Shown here piece after piece: positions 46,693 through 63,755 of a stretch of DNA of 64,000 nucleotides. The notes below the pieces were generated by a model. The model made no database searches. It had not been told where the DNA came from and saw only the letters and a list, made by a program, of their open reading frames with translations. The stretch covers positions 491,001 through 555,000 of the forward strand of contig NC_023137.1 of assembly GCF_000511385.1 (NCBI RefSeq). The letters run 5' to 3'. The position numbers and the translations under genes are program-made. Position 1 is the stretch's first letter. Each line of letters starts with the position of its first letter. The stretch comes from Phaeobacter gallaeciensis DSM 26640 (GTDB lineage: Bacteria; Pseudomonadota; Alphaproteobacteria; Rhodobacterales; Rhodobacteraceae).

Positions 46693-47448
46693 ATGGAACT
46701 AAAAGACAAGACACTTATCATCACCGGCGCAAGCAGTGGCATCGGTGCTGCTGCGGCGTTGTTGTTTGCGGCAGAAGGGGCCAATGTCGTGCTGGGTGCC
46801 CGGCGGCAGGCTGAGCTGCAAACCCTTGCAGGTCAGATAAATCAAAGCGGTGGGCGGGCCGCCAGCCTGGCCGGGGATGTTACCGAGGAATCCTATTCAG
46901 AATCTTTGGTGGCCTTGGCGACAGAAGCGTTTGGCGGGCTGGACGGCGCCTTTAACAACGCGGGCATCATGGGAGACATGGGGCCGGTTGAGCAGATGGA
47001 TGCCGCCAACTGGAACGCCGTCCTCACGGCAAACCTGACCGGCGCGTTTTTCTCGGCCAAGGCGCAGATCCCGGCTCTGCGCGCACGCGGCGGGGGCGCG
47101 CTGGTGTTTACCGGATCCTTTGTTGGGTTCAGCAATGGCGGCATGCCTGGCATGGGGGCCTATGCGGCGTCTAAGGCGGGATTGATCGGCCTGGTTCAGT
47201 CGCTGGCGTCCGATCTTGCTGCAGAGGGCATCCGGGCAAACGCGCTGCTGCCGGGCGGAACCAAAACCGCCATGGCGGGGGACGATCCGGACACACACAG
47301 TTTTATCTCGGGGTTGCACCCGATGAAACGGATGGCCGCGCCGGTGGAAATTGCCCAAGCTGCGCTGTTTCTTCTGTCGGACCGGTCCAGTTTCGTGACC
47401 GGCGGTCCGGTGGCGGTGGATGGCGGAATCGCGGCGCGGCTTGTCTGA
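46693..47448 (+). CDS. Short-chain dehydrogenase/reductase (SDR)
   Basis: The 251-residue oxidoreductase has the NAD(P) motif TGASSGIGAAAALLF (residues 11-25), NNAGIMG near 89, the catalytic Ser near 140 and YAASKAGLIGLVQSLA (Tyr/Lys pair near 155). The C-terminal GGPVAVDGGIAARLV is typical of 3-ketoacyl reductase-like SDRs. The substrate is unknown. GGAGG supports the ATG at 46693; an ATG at 46678 is in frame. It is followed by the tpa terminator on the opposite strand. Confidence 0.92.
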   Translation: MELKDKTLIITGASSGIGAAAALLFAAEGANVVLGARRQAELQTLAGQINQSGGRAASLAGDVTEESYSESLVALATEAFGGLDGAFNNAGIMGDMGPVEQMDAANWNAVLTANLTGAFFSAKAQIPALRARGGGALVFTGSFVGFSNGGMPGMGAYAASKAGLIGLVQSLASDLAAEGIRANALLPGGTKTAMAGDDPDTHSFISGLHPMKRMAAPVEIAQAALFLLSDRSSFVTGGPVAVDGGIAARLV

Positions 47449-47479
47449 ACCCGACCGGGCCAACTGTCTCAACAAGAAA

Positions 47480-47502
47480 GCGCCCCGGACATACCGGGGC
47501 GC
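47480..47502 (-). terminator. Terminator of tpa
   Basis: GCGCCCCGG at 47480-47488 pairs with CCGGGGCGC at 47494-47502. On the minus strand TTTCTTG follows. It lies 28 bases past the tpa stop. Confidence 0.78.
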
Positions 47503-47530
47503 AATTCGTTCCTCCAACAGGGGAAATGTA

Positions 47531-48928
47531 TCAGCCAAACACTTTGGTCAGGGCGACATCCACCGCGTCGGTGATCTTGTCCACGTCCTCGGGCGTCACG
47601 ATCAGCGCCGGGCTGAAGCAGAGGGTGTTGTTCTTGCCCGGAATGGAGCGGTTGGTCACGCCGATGATAACGTTCTGATTGCCACATTCGGCCACAACCG
47701 CCTGTGCCAGTTTCTCGTCCACCGGCGCCTTCGTTTCGCGGTCTGCAACCAGCTCGGCGCCAAGGAACAGACCCTTGCCGCGCACATCGCCGATCACCTG
47801 ATGCTTCTCCATCAGCGCCTCAAGGTTGGATTTCATCCGCTCCCCCATGGCGGTGCAGTTCTCCAGCAGGTTCTCATCCTCGATGATCTGCATATTGACC
47901 AGCGCGGCGGCGGGGCCGGCGGTGCAGCCACCAAAGGTGGAGATGTCGCGGAAGTAGTTCATCGGATCACTGGCGTCATCCTTGAACATATTGAAGACGT
48001 CTTCGGTGGTGACGAGGCAGGCAATTGCGGCATAGCCCGAGGCGACGCCTTTGGCCATGGTCACGAAATCAGGCTGAATGCCGTAGTGCTGATAGCCGAA
48101 CCAAGTGCCGGTGCGGCCGACGCCACAGACCACTTCGTCGATATGGAGCAGCACGTCGTACTGCTTGCAGATCTCCTGCACGCGCGGCCAGTAACCTTCG
48201 GGGGCCTCAATGACGCCACCACCTGCGGTTACAGGTTCAAGGCAGAGCGCGCCAACGGTGTCGGGGCCTTCGCGCAGGATGACCTCCTCGATCAGATTTG
48301 CGGCTGCAATGCCGAACTCCTTGCCGGAGAGATGCTCCAGACCCAGCTCGTGCTTGCGGTATTCCATGCAATGGGGGACCTTCACAAAATCCGGGGCGAA
48401 GGGGCCATATTGCATATTGCGCTCTTCCTGGCCGCCTGCGGACATCGCTGCGAGGGTGGAGCCGTGGTAGTCGCGGTCGCGGTACAGGATCTTGGTTTTC
48501 TTGCCACCGTATTTCTTGTGCGCGATCTGGCGCACCATCTTGAAGGCTTTCTCATTCGCCTCCGAGCCAGAGTTGTTGTAGTAGACGCGGCTCATGCCCG
48601 GCATCTTCTCGATCAGCTTTTCGGCAAACAACGCACCGGGGATCGAGCCTGCGGATTGTGCGAAATAGCAGAGCTTCATCAGCTGGTCATAAACGGCCTT
48701 GGCGATTTCCTCGCGGCCATAGCCGACATTGACGGTCCAGACCCCGCCGGAAACGGCGTCGAGCCATTCCTTGCCGTTCTGGTCCCAGACCCGCATGCCC
48801 TTGCCCTCGACGATGATGCGGGGGTCGTTTTCTTCAAACGGCTTGTGCTGGATCAGGTGATGCCAGACGTTTGCCTTATCGGCGGCGATGACCCGGCTCA
48901 GGTCGTTTTCATTGAACGTGCCATCCAT
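47531..48928 (-). CDS. tpa: Taurine-pyruvate aminotransferase
   Basis: The 465-residue class III PLP enzyme transfers the amino group of taurine to pyruvate and gives sulfoacetaldehyde, the substrate of Xsc. Its PLP residues are D264 in LHIDEVVCGVGRTG and K293 in TMAKGVASGY. The N terminus NVWHHLIQHKPFE and the overall length match Tpa. A TauR box pair lies upstream. Omega-amino acid:pyruvate transaminases are close relatives; the operator and xsc in the neighbourhood support Tpa. No tauXY dehydrogenase is present. Confidence 0.92.
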   Translation of the reverse strand: MDGTFNENDLSRVIAADKANVWHHLIQHKPFEENDPRIIVEGKGMRVWDQNGKEWLDAVSGGVWTVNVGYGREEIAKAVYDQLMKLCYFAQSAGSIPGALFAEKLIEKMPGMSRVYYNNSGSEANEKAFKMVRQIAHKKYGGKKTKILYRDRDYHGSTLAAMSAGGQEERNMQYGPFAPDFVKVPHCMEYRKHELGLEHLSGKEFGIAAANLIEEVILREGPDTVGALCLEPVTAGGGVIEAPEGYWPRVQEICKQYDVLLHIDEVVCGVGRTGTWFGYQHYGIQPDFVTMAKGVASGYAAIACLVTTEDVFNMFKDDASDPMNYFRDISTFGGCTAGPAAALVNMQIIEDENLLENCTAMGERMKSNLEALMEKHQVIGDVRGKGLFLGAELVADRETKAPVDEKLAQAVVAECGNQNVIIGVTNRSIPGKNNTLCFSPALIVTPEDVDKITDAVDVALTKVFG

Positions 48929-49025
48929 GACATGCCCTTTCCACGTTGTTCGAAAATGCGGTCTGCCATGGATTGGCTGGCCAGACTCGCCCTGTATCCA
49001 CGAAACGCTATATTTACGTTTTGCT

Positions 49026-49058
49026 CTAGGTCCAGTTGCCGACGCAATTTAGCTCCAG
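49026..49058 (-). promoter_or_regulatory. Candidate TauR box pair upstream of tpa
   Basis: On the minus strand CTGGAGCTAA (49058-49049) and CTGGACCTAG (49035-49026) are direct repeats 23 bases apart, 98-130 bases upstream of the tpa start. Both match the TauR repeat at 9 of 10 positions. They lie in the region shared with the divergent BKACE gene. Confidence 0.78.
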
Positions 49059-49187
49059 ACGCGGGGTGGGCGGAGACCTGTGGTAAAAAACATTTGTTCT
49101 GAATTTGTCAGATTGAGAACATGCGCTGTTATGCGCCAGATCGGTGCTGCCGATAGACCGGCGCAGTGAGATAAGCGGAGCGAAGCC

Positions 49188-56521: not shown

Positions 56522-56585
56522 ATTGGATGTCCATTGTTTTGTTTAAAAACAATATGTTGTATTTCATGTTTGTGAAATTGGATGT
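56522..56585 (+). promoter_or_regulatory. AT-rich leader with direct repeats and hairpin before the dehalogenase gene
   Basis: ATTGGATGT occurs at 56522-56530 and again at 56577-56585. Between them ATTGTTTT (56533-56540) pairs with AAAACAAT (56546-56553). This strongly AT-rich block lies in the 152-base gap between pxpA and the reductive dehalogenase gene. It may hold that gene's promoter and operator or terminate pxpBCA. Confidence 0.5.
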
Positions 56586-56655
56586 TGGAGCCTATCCCTT
56601 GGGCGGATTTCTGGGCTAAACCTGTGGCAGCCTTTTGCTGCAACAGGATCCGCCT

Positions 56656-59600
56656 ATGTCTCTCCGCTTGTTTTCGACCCGGTCCCGCCCGATCCATATG
56701 GGGCCGTTTCCGATGGAGCGGGTGCAGCCGGGGCCGATGCCGGACCTGAGAGGCGTGCCACCGTTTCAGCCGCTGAATTTCCGGCGACCCGATATGCCGG
56801 CCTCCATCGTCAATGCGATGGGTGAATATCAGGCGATGATGGATGCGATCCGCGACGGGCTGGTCAACAAGGCGCAGGCGGACTGCCCGAGCGACCCGCA
56901 GGAACGGGCCGATCATATCAAGGCCTTTGGCTATTTCAGCGATGCGGCGATGGTGGGGATTGGGCCGATGCCTGCCTCTGCCCGGCTGGATGTGCCCTAT
57001 CGCAACCCCGATATCGACCGGCTGTCCCATGATCTGAAGACGCGCCAGACCAAGACGCTGGCCTCGGGCATTGATATGATCATGGCGGATCTGCGCGATG
57101 CGATGAAGGCGCCGCCGACCACTATTGGCGACCATACGCATTCGGTTGTGTTTCTCTATGACATGCCGCGCGATCCGCGCCCGGATGAGGCAGGCTGTGA
57201 CTGGCTGGACGGGGCAGAGCGCCACCGCGCCTGTCTGCGGGCCTCGGAAACGGCGGTGGTGTTGGCGAATTACATCCGCTTGCTGGGCTGGGATGCCAAG
57301 GCGCATACCGGCAGCTCGGCGGATGTGGATCTGAACCAGCTGACGGTTGCCGCTGGGCTGGCCACGGTTGAGGATGGCAAGCTGGTGAACCCCTATCTGG
57401 GCACGCGGTTTGGTGTGGCGGTGGTGACCACCGATTTTGAGATGGCACGGGACAAGCCGCTGTTGCCGCAGGAACTGCAACCGGTGATGCAGGTGAAGGG
57501 GCCGAAATGGTGGCTGGGGGTCGGCTCCGAACGCTCAGCACTGAATGGCGATCCCTTTGCCCGCCGTGATTTCTGCGATGGGCCGCATCCGTTTGAGACG
57601 CTGAAGCGGGTCGCGGATCCGACCACCTATATTGACGAGGCGCGGGTGGCGCGGGTGCCCAAACGCGCCGATATGTTTGCCCGCAGTCAGTTCGGCGACA
57701 TGGGCAAGACCAATCAGGCGGCGGCCACCGGAGGGTTTTACGTGCGCAAGGCCGCGCCCTCGATGGCGCAGCGGCGAATGCTGGGGGCCTTTGTGCTGTT
57801 GCAGGATGGCGCGCCTGCCCCACAGGCGCCGCGCCCCACGGATGCGGAGCGCAATGCTGCCAATATCAAGGCGGCGAGCTATTGGCTGGGGATTGACGCA
57901 GTGGGGATCAGCCGCTGCCCGGAATGGACATGGTACAGCCATGATGCCACCGGTGCCGAAATCCACCCGGAGCATGATCAGGCGATCTCGATGATTGTCG
58001 ATCAGGGCTTTGACACGACGGAGGGCACCTCCGGCGATGACTGGATTGCGGTGGCGCAGTCCATGCGGGCCTATCTGCGGTTTTCCCTGCTGGGCGGGGT
58101 GATTGCCCGCCAGATCCGCAACCTCGGCTACAAGGCGAAGGCGCATACGGTGATGGACGGGGAGGTCTTGCAGCCGCCGCTGCTGCTGCTGTCGGGGCTG
58201 GGGGAGGTTAGCCGGATTGGTGAGGTGATCCTGAACCCCTTCCTCGGGCCGCGATTGAAATCCGGGGTTGTCACCACCGATATGCCGATGGCCCATGACA
58301 AGCCGATTGATTTTGGCCTTCAGGCATTCTGCGAGGCCTGTAACAAATGTGCCCGCGAATGCCCGTCGGGCGCCATCACGGCCGGGCCGAAGCTGATGTT
58401 CAACGGCTATGAAATCTGGAAATCCGACAGTCAGAAATGCACCACCTATCGCATCACCACACCCGGTGGTGCGATGTGCGGGCGCTGTATGAAAACCTGC
58501 CCGTGGAACCTTGAGGGGATATTCAAGGAAAAGCCGTTTCGTTGGGCGGCGATGAATATGCCTGCGGTGGCCCCCGCTTTGGCCAAGCTCGACGATATGG
58601 TTGGCAATGGTGAAATGAACCCGGCCAAGAAATGGTGGTGGGATCTGGAGCTGGAAGAGGATGGCGGCTACCGTCCGACCCGGCATCCGGTCAATGCGCG
58701 CGCGCTCCAGAAAGATCTGGATCTGCGCTATGAGGATCAGACGCTGGCGGTGTATCCTGCGCATCTGGCGCCGCATCCCTGGCCCTACCCGTTTCCAATG
58801 GACCGGGAGGCAGGGATTGAGGCCTATCAGGCAATGGTCACGGCGGAGGAATACAAGGCCCGCCGTGCGCGGGGCGAGACCGGCGGTTGGGATCACATCT
58901 ATACCAATGACGGCGACAGTCCGGTTCTGCGGGTTGAGGTGTCGAACGTCGAGGAGATGAGCAGCGGCGTTACCAAATATGAGTTCCGGAGCCTGGATGG
59001 CAGCCCCTTGCCGGAATGGACTGCGGGTGCGCATCTGGACATTGTGGTCGCGCCGGAGTTTCTGCGTCAGTATTCCATGTCGGGGGATCCGGCAGACCGG
59101 TCGAAATACCAGATCGGTGTGCTGCGCGAGGATCTGGGGCGGGGTGGTTCAAAACTGCTGCACCGGATTTTCACCAAGGGGCGGCGGGTCTTCATCTCCA
59201 AACCGATCAACCATTTCCCATTGGTGGAGGAGGCGCGTCGCAGTTTCCTGATGGGAGGCGGGATTGGTGTGACGCCGATGATTGCCATGGCCCATCGTCT
59301 GCACGCGTTGGGACAGCCGTTTGAGCTGCATTATTCCGTATCATCGCGCCAGGACGCAGGCTACCTGAGTGATCTCGCAGCGATGCCCTGGGCGGAGCAT
59401 GTGCATATCCATGTCTCCGATGAGGGCAGTCGCGCGAATCTGGATCGGGTGCTGGCGGATTACCAGGATGGCTGGCACGTCTATACCTGTGGACCGGACC
59501 GCTACATGGGTGGCGTGATGGAGGCTGCAGAGCGGCAGGGCTTCCCTGAGGAAGCGCGTCATCTGGAGTATTTTTCCGTGCCGGAGGTGCCGGAGTATGA

Positions 59601-59871
59601 AAACCACGACTTCACCCTGAAGCTCAGCCGGTCAGGGCGTGAGTTATTGGTGCCGGCGGAAAAGACCGCTACGGATGTGTTGGCCGAAAACGGCATTCAT
59701 ATAGATGTGAAATGTTCCGACGGGATCTGCGGCGTGTGCAAATGCGGTCTGATCGCAGGCGAGGTGGAGCACCGCGATTTCGTGCTCTCCAAGGCGCAGC
59801 GTCAAGATGCGGTGATCCTGTGCCAGTCACGGGCGGCAGAGAAAGATGGCGTGATTGAAGTGGATCTTTGA
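56656..59871 (+). CDS. Self-sufficient reductive dehalogenase: RdhA-type corrinoid/iron-sulfur domain fused to an FMN/[2Fe-2S] reductase
   Basis: This 1071-residue protein joins an RdhA-like part (about 1-700) to a phthalate dioxygenase reductase-like part (about 750-1071). The RdhA part has a repeated AKAHT...NP-FLG...VVTTD-type core (about 190-268 and 465-550), as in CblC-like corrinoid folds. Its [4Fe-4S] motifs use C559, C562, C565, C569 and C595, C608, C611, C615. The reductase part has RQYSMSG (FMN), GGIGVTP (868-874), CGPDRYM (945-951) and a ferredoxin site C1020, C1025, C1028, C1056. No Tat signal or rdhB anchor is present, so it should be a cytoplasmic catabolic enzyme like NpRdhA or BhbA. 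Substrate unknown. The ATG at 56656 has AGGA eight bases upstream. Confidence 0.9.
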   Translation: MSLRLFSTRSRPIHMGPFPMERVQPGPMPDLRGVPPFQPLNFRRPDMPASIVNAMGEYQAMMDAIRDGLVNKAQADCPSDPQERADHIKAFGYFSDAAMVGIGPMPASARLDVPYRNPDIDRLSHDLKTRQTKTLASGIDMIMADLRDAMKAPPTTIGDHTHSVVFLYDMPRDPRPDEAGCDWLDGAERHRACLRASETAVVLANYIRLLGWDAKAHTGSSADVDLNQLTVAAGLATVEDGKLVNPYLGTRFGVAVVTTDFEMARDKPLLPQELQPVMQVKGPKWWLGVGSERSALNGDPFARRDFCDGPHPFETLKRVADPTTYIDEARVARVPKRADMFARSQFGDMGKTNQAAATGGFYVRKAAPSMAQRRMLGAFVLLQDGAPAPQAPRPTDAERNAANIKAASYWLGIDAVGISRCPEWTWYSHDATGAEIHPEHDQAISMIVDQGFDTTEGTSGDDWIAVAQSMRAYLRFSLLGGVIARQIRNLGYKAKAHTVMDGEVLQPPLLLLSGLGEVSRIGEVILNPFLGPRLKSGVVTTDMPMAHDKPIDFGLQAFCEACNKCARECPSGAITAGPKLMFNGYEIWKSDSQKCTTYRITTPGGAMCGRCMKTCPWNLEGIFKEKPFRWAAMNMPAVAPALAKLDDMVGNGEMNPAKKWWWDLELEEDGGYRPTRHPVNARALQKDLDLRYEDQTLAVYPAHLAPHPWPYPFPMDREAGIEAYQAMVTAEEYKARRARGETGGWDHIYTNDGDSPVLRVEVSNVEEMSSGVTKYEFRSLDGSPLPEWTAGAHLDIVVAPEFLRQYSMSGDPADRSKYQIGVLREDLGRGGSKLLHRIFTKGRRVFISKPINHFPLVEEARRSFLMGGGIGVTPMIAMAHRLHALGQPFELHYSVSSRQDAGYLSDLAAMPWAEHVHIHVSDEGSRANLDRVLADYQDGWHVYTCGPDRYMGGVMEAAERQGFPEEARHLEYFSVPEVPEYENHDFTLKLSRSGRELLVPAEKTATDVLAENGIHIDVKCSDGICGVCKCGLIAGEVEHRDFVLSKAQRQDAVILCQSRAAEKDGVIEVDL

Positions 59872-62583: not shown

Positions 62584-63294
62584 TCAGATCGTCGGTGTTT
62601 TTAGTGGATTGAGCCGCGCCGCAGTCTCAAAGAGGTCGAACCCTTTACGGGTATCTGCAACGATGCGTTGGGCCAGCGCGCTCTTGGGAGGAAGCTGTTC
62701 CAGATCCGTGCAGGTCGCGCGCCAAGTCGCCAGATGATCTCTTGGTGCGAAATAGGCAGGCAGGGCCATCTGGCCTGCGGCCTCGCTCAGGCGGCGGCGG
62801 AGCACCTCATTGCCCATACGGGATCCTAGCACGAGGTAATCCACCGCTAGAGGGTGCAGCTGGGGTAGGGTGTCCGCAGAGATAGCGGCCGGCCGGTCGC
62901 CATTATCGGCGCAATCCGCGCGCAGCGCAGCGGTCAAATCTGCTAGCAATGCGGTGGCCCGTCCCCTCTCGAGACGGCAGGTGTCGGCCAGCGCATGTAA
63001 CGCGGTATGCTGGCAGGCCAGAAACCACGCAAGATGGGGCAGGGGTCTTTGGTGAAAAGGGGCAAAAGCCAGTTCAGCTGTATCATGTTCGGGCCGGGTG
63101 GCTCGCCGCAGTTCAGACCGAAACCCGGGCTGATCCTGGAGGTGGCGTTGCAGGCCATGGGGCCGCTGTACCTGTCTACCCTCTGTTTCGGGCGGGGCAT
63201 CGACCTTTGGCACAGTGCTCAGGTTGCGTCGGCCAGGGTGGGCTGCGGTATCCTCGGATAGGGTAAGTGCCGCGGAGGGGGAAAGATCTGTCAT
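62584..63294 (-). CDS. bphO: Heme oxygenase (biliverdin-producing), partner of the bacteriophytochrome
   Basis: The 236-residue protein has the heme oxygenase core with the likely proximal His70 in LRRATRPEHDTAE and the distal glycine helix YLVLGSRMGNEVLRRR (153-168). It opens heme to biliverdin IX-alpha, the chromophore of the adjacent phytochrome. An N-terminal stretch of about 60 residues, low in structure and rich in Pro and Arg, precedes the core and is not usual in the family. No internal ATG offers a shorter start. The ATG at 63294 is preferred to 63321. Confidence 0.87.
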   Translation of the reverse strand: MTDLSPSAALTLSEDTAAHPGRRNLSTVPKVDAPPETEGRQVQRPHGLQRHLQDQPGFRSELRRATRPEHDTAELAFAPFHQRPLPHLAWFLACQHTALHALADTCRLERGRATALLADLTAALRADCADNGDRPAAISADTLPQLHPLAVDYLVLGSRMGNEVLRRRLSEAAGQMALPAYFAPRDHLATWRATCTDLEQLPPKSALAQRIVADTRKGFDLFETAARLNPLKTPTI

Positions 63295-63755
63295 GGTCTC
63301 GTATCTTGGTCCTGAGCGCATGCGTTCTGGATGTGTATGGACAGCATTCGCCTGTCATCCACCTGTGATCCGGACCACCTGTCTATTGCGCCGCGCGCTT
63401 ATCACTGCTGCATGGTCATGCTTGCAGCCTACCAAAGCCCATGAGGGGGGTATGGCACAACCCCTAGTCGTAACAGTGACCTAGCGGCTTCCGGAGGTTT
63501 GACCAGCAGGCCGTGGGAAGAGACGTGTTTGTGCAGAACTATGGCTGCGCTCGGCAGTTTGCGGTTCGTGATTCCGACTCGAAATAGGTCGAGGCTGCAT
63601 GAGTCCTAGTGGTCTCGCGCAGTCTGGCATCTATATATAGATATCGAACTGTCGCGCTGGCGCTTAGGCAATCTGTGAGTCGTGAGAAATGTACCCGAAA
63701 TGAGGAGCTTTCAGAGAAAAAAATCGATCTAATATTATGATATAAAACAAAAATA
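63295..63755. other. Intergenic stretch upstream of bphO without a supported gene
   Basis: The region should contain the bphO promoter on the minus strand. No open frame with ribosome site or recognisable protein is present on either strand. The last part, from about 63650, becomes strongly AT-rich. I see no repeat or RNA gene in it. Confidence 0.4.

Follow-up and report, generated by a model that had tools for sequence, protein, structure and literature searches.

The window analysed here, a 64,000-nucleotide stretch of the Phaeobacter gallaeciensis DSM 26640 genome (contig NC_023137.1, positions 491,001 to 555,000), carries an intact open reading frame, rdhA, whose product of 1071 amino acids is, as judged from its sequence, a catabolic reductive dehalogenase fused to a module of the phthalate dioxygenase reductase (PDOR) type. 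In all likelihood this product is a cytoplasmic, self-sufficient enzyme, built and working like JtRdhA of Jhaorihella thermophila, which appears from sequence comparison to be the closest characterised enzyme among those compared. The protein is real, well supported and of an already known kind, and among the papers listed in our literature searches, none was noticed that deals with the DSM 26640 protein itself. The gene and the main regions that it encodes are listed below.

56656..59871, plus strand: rdhA, encoding a fused (self-sufficient) catabolic reductive dehalogenase of 1071 amino acids plus stop (profile and structure-library matches, alignments)
57943..58605, plus strand: functional RdhA core, residues 430-650, matched by TIGR02486 (profile match)
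58330..58509, plus strand: two [4Fe-4S] motifs, residues 559-618 (Pfam and cysteine alignment)
58924..59835, plus strand: PDOR-like module with RQYS (804-807), GGGIGVTP (867-874) and cysteines 1020, 1025, 1028 and 1056 (Pfam, match to 2pia, alignment)
56893..57459, plus strand: vestigial second cobalamin-binding core, from about residue 80 to 268 (second TIGR02486 stretch, blastp of half against half)
56971..57096, plus strand: insert, residues 106-147 (about 42), absent from NpRdhA (alignment; borders approximate, as 11 NpRdhA residues nearby are given as X)

An alternative in-frame TTG start at position 56635 would extend the product to 1078 amino acids. The fold family and the order of domains can be read from profile and structure searches. 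The product matched the NCBIfam reductive dehalogenase model TIGR02486 with 205.3 bits, above the cut-off of 160.35, and among solved structures the chains of NpRdhA of Nitratireductor pacificus were the top matches (E about 1e-155, best stretch 159-742), a value at which the likeness to RdhA is not due to chance. They were followed by two P450 fusions and by phthalate dioxygenase reductase 2pia (residues 755-1067, E 4.4e-52). Pfam located a double [4Fe-4S] domain at residues 559-618, DmmA-like_N, the N-domain of a reductase, at 848-965, and Fer2 at 991-1060. The trait of the self-sufficient, PDOR-fused subfamily, namely a C-terminal flavin/NAD(P)H/[2Fe-2S] reductase within the same chain as RdhA, is therefore present, and the proposal of an earlier, sequence-only reading of this DNA that RdhA is fused here to its own reductase is borne out by the TIGR02486 score and by the Fer2 and 2pia matches. 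Within this module we take RQYS to be the flavin motif and GGGIGVTP to be the nucleotide motif.

The weak match of the product to TIGR00276 (22.3 bits) might point to a corrinoid reductase of another function, for instance a QueG-like epoxyqueuosine reductase, but it is far under the cut-off of that model (200), while TIGR02486 is exceeded; we regard such a function as extremely improbable. Furthermore, the genome contains a separate frame of 373 amino acids with a weak reductive dehalogenase match (25.6 bits), which, as a guess, is QueG itself. Weak matches of this kind were also present in 11 of 14 control genomes, in none of them over the cut-off, and in the genome of the window only the fused RdhA exceeds the TIGR02486 cut-off.

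The fused RdhA is matched by TIGR02486 twice, the second and weaker stretch scoring 44.3 bits, below the cut-off. Comparison of the N-terminal with the C-terminal half of the protein by blastp gave 70.5 bits (E 5e-19, 38% identity over 113 columns). According to PMC10463259, a vestigial duplication of this kind is a mark of catabolic RdhAs, and an insert is described there for RdhA-PDOR fusions, with which the insert of the window protein agrees.

Residue conservation was assessed in an alignment of 207 rows, prepared from 104 loci aligned over at least 900 amino acids, minus L001, L124 and exact duplicates, with proteins from the first of two protein searches added; the window protein and many near-duplicates are among the rows, and NpRdhA is absent from them. 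The protein searches behind our comparisons supplied the best 120 of 2958 and the best 120 of 3291 matches, and the locus search the best 80 of 520. The cysteines of the two [4Fe-4S] motifs (C559-x2-C562-x2-C565-x3-C569, and C595 with C608-x2-C611-x3-C615), the positions of which had been predicted exactly, and those of the plant-type [2Fe-2S] cluster (C1020, C1025, C1028, and C1056) are 12 in number and all invariant (207/207 rows). Inspection for the motif revealed no twin arginine before residue 43, in agreement with the earlier claim that a twin-arginine translocation (Tat) signal is absent. The window protein thus has the traits of the catabolic group of NpRdhA, BhbA, and JtRdhA: a core scoring over the cut-off, a duplicated core, the Tyr/Lys/Arg set with Ser and Met, two [4Fe-4S] clusters, and no Tat motif. 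Respiratory reductive dehalogenases of the PceA type have a Tat signal, a single core and no reductase, and the window protein differs from them in all three respects. The traits that mark the respiratory enzymes were taken in part from PMC10463259.

The pocket residues of NpRdhA F291, S422, M423, Y426, K488, and R552 align with F341, S469, M470, Y473, K535, and R599 of the window protein, each of which is invariant (207/207 rows). Their roles are assigned after PMC7565698, and the presumed catalytic positions are as follows.

58072..58074, plus strand: Tyr473, equivalent to NpRdhA Tyr426, presumed proton donor (alignment, 207/207 rows)
58258..58260, plus strand: Lys535, equivalent to NpRdhA Lys488 (alignment, 207/207 rows)
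58450..58452, plus strand: Arg599, equivalent to NpRdhA Arg552 (alignment, 207/207 rows)

While the pocket Tyr and Lys are retained, a loss of which the sequence-only reading had named as fatal to its proposal, the residues that it had offered as catalytic were different ones. Tyr427, Lys493, and Lys495 are ruled out by comparison with the aligned sequences of NpRdhA, BhbA, and the J. thermophila protein: neither lysine aligns with NpRdhA K488, and the catalytic map is corrected to Y473/K535/R599. Tyr427 is conserved (206/207 rows), and position 493 is variable, with Lys in 134 of 207 rows. Around the invariant positions, NpRdhA F290, K307, F310, P311, A419, and N452 are replaced in the window protein by M, A, Y, V, V, and V, respectively. 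A separate observation concerns the second fused RdhA copy of Ruegeria sp. HKCCD8929 (L077), which departs from the clade at the positions of window A357, Y362, and V499 and is a natural candidate for an altered substrate range.

PMC10463259 describes JtRdhA, according to this 2023 paper the only self-sufficient member studied in detail, as an enzyme with FMN as its flavin that tightly couples NADPH to the removal of bromine and iodine from ortho-halophenols, even when air is present. The best substrate tested was 3,5-dibromo-4-hydroxybenzoate; chlorinated and fluorinated test compounds were not turned over, and the chlorinated ones were inhibitory (PMC10463259). A fused protein of J. thermophila, P0217, which we take as JtRdhA, is co-linear with the window protein and 73.3% identical to it over 1068 columns (72.7% over 315 columns of the reductase module), has the same order of domains and nearly the same length (1069 vs. 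1071 amino acids), and has the residue of the window protein at each of the 12 pocket positions transferred from NpRdhA, while about 27% of its residues differ. As in the window protein, the Tat signal is absent from JtRdhA, and the duplicated core and the insert relative to NpRdhA are present, as stated in PMC10463259. This enzyme had been missed when NpRdhA and BhbA were named as the nearest characterised ones, and a well-supported relative of JtRdhA from close to Phaeobacter is added here.

BhbA, encoded on plasmid pBHB of Comamonas sp. 7D-2, shares with the window protein the fused build, the clusters and the Y/K/R triad (48.8-49.4% identity), but differs at five of the 12 mapped pocket positions (F341, S358, S363, S467, and A500), and its gene is carried by a conjugative plasmid, where genes for protocatechuate dioxygenase surround it. 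NpRdhA (PDB 4ras, 6zxu) is likewise a catabolic RdhA with a vestigial domain and Y426/K488/R552. However, it lacks the reductase module, is 41.7% identical to the window protein over 674 columns, and differs at six of the 12 mapped positions (290, 307, 310, 311, 419, and 452). It had earlier been taken for a fused enzyme; PMC10463259 groups it with naturally truncated RdhAs that have no reductase.

Another enzyme from a marine roseobacter, Ros_A3X954 of Roseobacter sp. MED193, debrominates 2,6-dibromophenol in an assay with Ti(III) citrate and methyl viologen, as described in PMC13101508. Like the window protein, it is a catabolic RdhA without a Tat signal (PMC13101508), but it is a short protein. 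MED193 also encodes a fused protein 86% identical to that of the window. We rejected Ros_A3X954 as a characterised ortholog at this level of identity, since the motifs printed for it, at positions 283 and 337, are those of the short MED193 RdhA (L135) and do not fit its fused counterpart. Caution is needed here, as the published MED193 debrominase is a different protein from the fused enzyme.

By analogy to JtRdhA, the window protein very probably removes bromine or iodine from phenol-type molecules. From the homology and the domain order we infer how it would bind its cofactors and pass electrons. NAD(P)H (NADPH in JtRdhA) would deliver a hydride to the flavin (FMN in JtRdhA) of the C-terminal module, from which single electrons would pass through the [2Fe-2S] and the two [4Fe-4S] clusters to base-off cobalamin. 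The cobalt would then attack the halogen ortho to the phenolic hydroxyl, the latter being held by Ser469, Lys535, and Arg599, with Tyr473 as the proton source. The likeliest substrates would be brominated and iodinated phenols and phenolic acids, such as 3,5-dibromo-4-hydroxybenzoate, rather than chlorophenols, and the dehalogenated product may enter the 4-hydroxybenzoate/protocatechuate route of the host. Oxygen tolerance is carried over by homology from JtRdhA and NpRdhA and may be expected on that ground. Away from rdhA, the genome contains cobN, pobA, pcaH, and hmgA, all over their cut-offs, which makes both a corrinoid supply and the use of 4-hydroxybenzoate-type products plausible, though neither is proven by it. 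Since nearly all compared relatives have the same pocket, the preference of JtRdhA for bromine and iodine is testable as a family trait.

Several points weigh against a JtRdhA-like function in this host. P0217, a match from the second protein search, is tied to JtRdhA (WP_104007082 in the published work) by its species name and not by its accession; its identity to NpRdhA is 43.7% over 673 columns vs. about 39% given for JtRdhA and NpRdhA in PMC10463259, perhaps a difference in counting. Ros_A3X954 is reported as oxygen-sensitive, with data not shown, in PMC13101508, and in view of its inactivation in oxygen, the air tolerance of catabolic RdhAs is not to be assumed. The presence of cobN alone is no proof of full cobalamin synthesis. 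Finally, no aromatic catabolic gene was seen adjoining rdhA in the window, as had been noted for halophenol genes, although pobA, pcaH, and hmgA are found elsewhere in the genome; and besides rdhA itself, no gene family is shared by more than 15 of the 81 loci compared, so that the context gives no confirmation of a phenol substrate.

The latter comparison comprised L006-L085 and the window, from which the longest frames without overlap, none shorter than 90 amino acids, were grouped at 40% identity. The counts are lower bounds, given the many truncated contigs. The rdhA gene was found in 78 of the 81 loci under the frame rule, and its misses in L037, L068, and L070 probably arise from that rule and not from gene loss, as the locus search shows a match there. 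The genes of BhbA and of the Nitratireductor OM-1 protein adjoin genes for protocatechuate or 4-hydroxybenzoate, whereas no such genes were recognised among the features listed for the plasmid copies of Jannaschia, Ruegeria TM1040, and Aminobacter. The neighbourhood thus says little on the substrate.

Fused RdhA is common in Rhodobacteraceae, where it is an ordinary protein of a known kind. In an even draw from the family, at close to one genome per genus, 153 of 394 genomes (by genus, 152 of 393) contained a relative at E <= 1e-80, while in a class-wide sample 10 of 385 genomes contained one at E <= 1e-150, five of these 10, the genome of the window included, belonging to the same family. The nearest protein among the matches listed is that of Phaeobacter italicus (96% identity), consistent with the description of the genome as roseobacter-like. 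A tree built from 27 selected rows places these two proteins as a pair (100/100) inside a starred group of seven that includes the fused MED193 protein, with BhbA and the Nitratireductor OM-1 protein, to which a long-branch warning applies, far from them. Matches were found in 1128 plasmid records, mostly through the reductase part; in eight of these, 80% or more of the protein is covered at a single locus.

The abundance of rdhA in the family and the lack of a conserved neighbourhood among the 81 loci would also fit an enzyme of the same chemistry that serves for housekeeping detoxification and not for growth, its true substrate being one particular marine organohalide of natural origin, e.g., a bromophenol from algae or sponges or a derivative of halotyrosine. 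The clade-wide departures from the NpRdhA pocket, e.g., K307 to Ala, A419 to Val, and N452 to Val, could be read in the same way. However, P0217 has the same pocket and JtRdhA prefers 3,5-dibromo-4-hydroxybenzoate, so these departures are no sign of a special substrate, and pobA and pcaH are present in the genome; we consider such a detoxifier possible but rather unlikely. Somewhat more speculatively, fused RdhA, present in about two in five sampled genera, might be a housekeeping trait of marine roseobacters that has its own conserved promoter and is tuned to a natural bromo- or iodophenolic compound of algal, sponge, or tyrosine-derived origin. If this were true, reductive dehalogenation under aerobic conditions would belong to the ordinary turnover of bromine and iodine in the sea, rather than being a specialty of pollutant degraders.

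Upstream of rdhA lie genes for BKACE, class III and class V aminotransferases, an EgtC-like amidotransferase, and pxpB, pxpC, and pxpA; several of these assignments, EgtC, PxpB, and PxpC among them, are under the curated cut-offs. The pxp genes are on the same strand, and they also precede rdhA in 14 of 31 relatives compared, which could suggest that rdhA functions within a pxpBCA (5-oxoprolinase-type) operon. We rejected this partnership, which is very improbable, because the two rdhA genes of the 31 with the most similar products, those of P. italicus (L006, 96%) and L007 (91%), have no pxpBCA beside them. In all, pxp genes are absent from the available DNA of 17 of the 31 relatives, some of them cut by contig ends, and the following conserved region is kept though the upstream gene differs.

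56533..56597, plus strand: conserved upstream boxes, possible promoter/operator of rdhA (footprint comparison)

Box 1 (56533-56553) reads ATTGTTTT-N5-AAAACAAT, and box 2 (56577-56597, at about -79) reads ATTGGATGTTGGAGCCTATCC. Both recur, despite the differing upstream gene, in a footprint set of 11 hand-picked relatives, two of which (L031 and L087) look identical in it, and they may represent rdhA's own promoter or operator. Box 2 has 0-1 mismatches in 21 positions in the three nearest relatives and 4-5 in the eight others; its next best place within the window has seven. A sigma-70 promoter scan gave three matches, all on the minus strand and none on the plus strand before rdhA, and pattern counts in 81 upstream regions revealed no motif common to all, the top 8-mer occurring in 14. 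A short palindrome at 56561-56578, not listed for L006 or L007, was not used as evidence. Relatives of the Pseudophaeobacter type have instead TGTCAC-N8-GTGACA and a divergent LuxR-type gene.

Downstream of rdhA and convergent with it is a gene for a bacteriophytochrome-type histidine kinase. Directly upstream of the latter on the same strand, the frame 62584-63321 (minus strand) has no Pfam match listed up to E 5 and no NCBIfam match; by position only, it might encode a biliverdin-producing heme oxygenase. Another frame, 47420-49102 (plus strand, 560 amino acids), for which no NCBIfam or Pfam match is listed, may be non-coding, lying opposite a frame of 465 amino acids at 47531-48928 (minus strand).

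Many contigs of relatives end soon after rdhA, which may be because rRNA genes follow. On the genome contig of the window a 23S gene starts at about 557548, some 6.7 kb past rdhA, and is followed by 5S, with no 16S match listed 3' of rdhA there (contig positions 553000-562000) or in L011. In MED193, 23S starts about 4 kb past rdhA, and in the Ruegeria TM1040 megaplasmid 16S lies about 0.7 kb past it. In five Ruegeria loci (L049, L050, L054, L056, and L058), three genes located about 3.3-4.7 kb past the rdhA start look by eye like those of the FAD, 2Fe-2S, and large subunits of a molybdenum hydroxylase.

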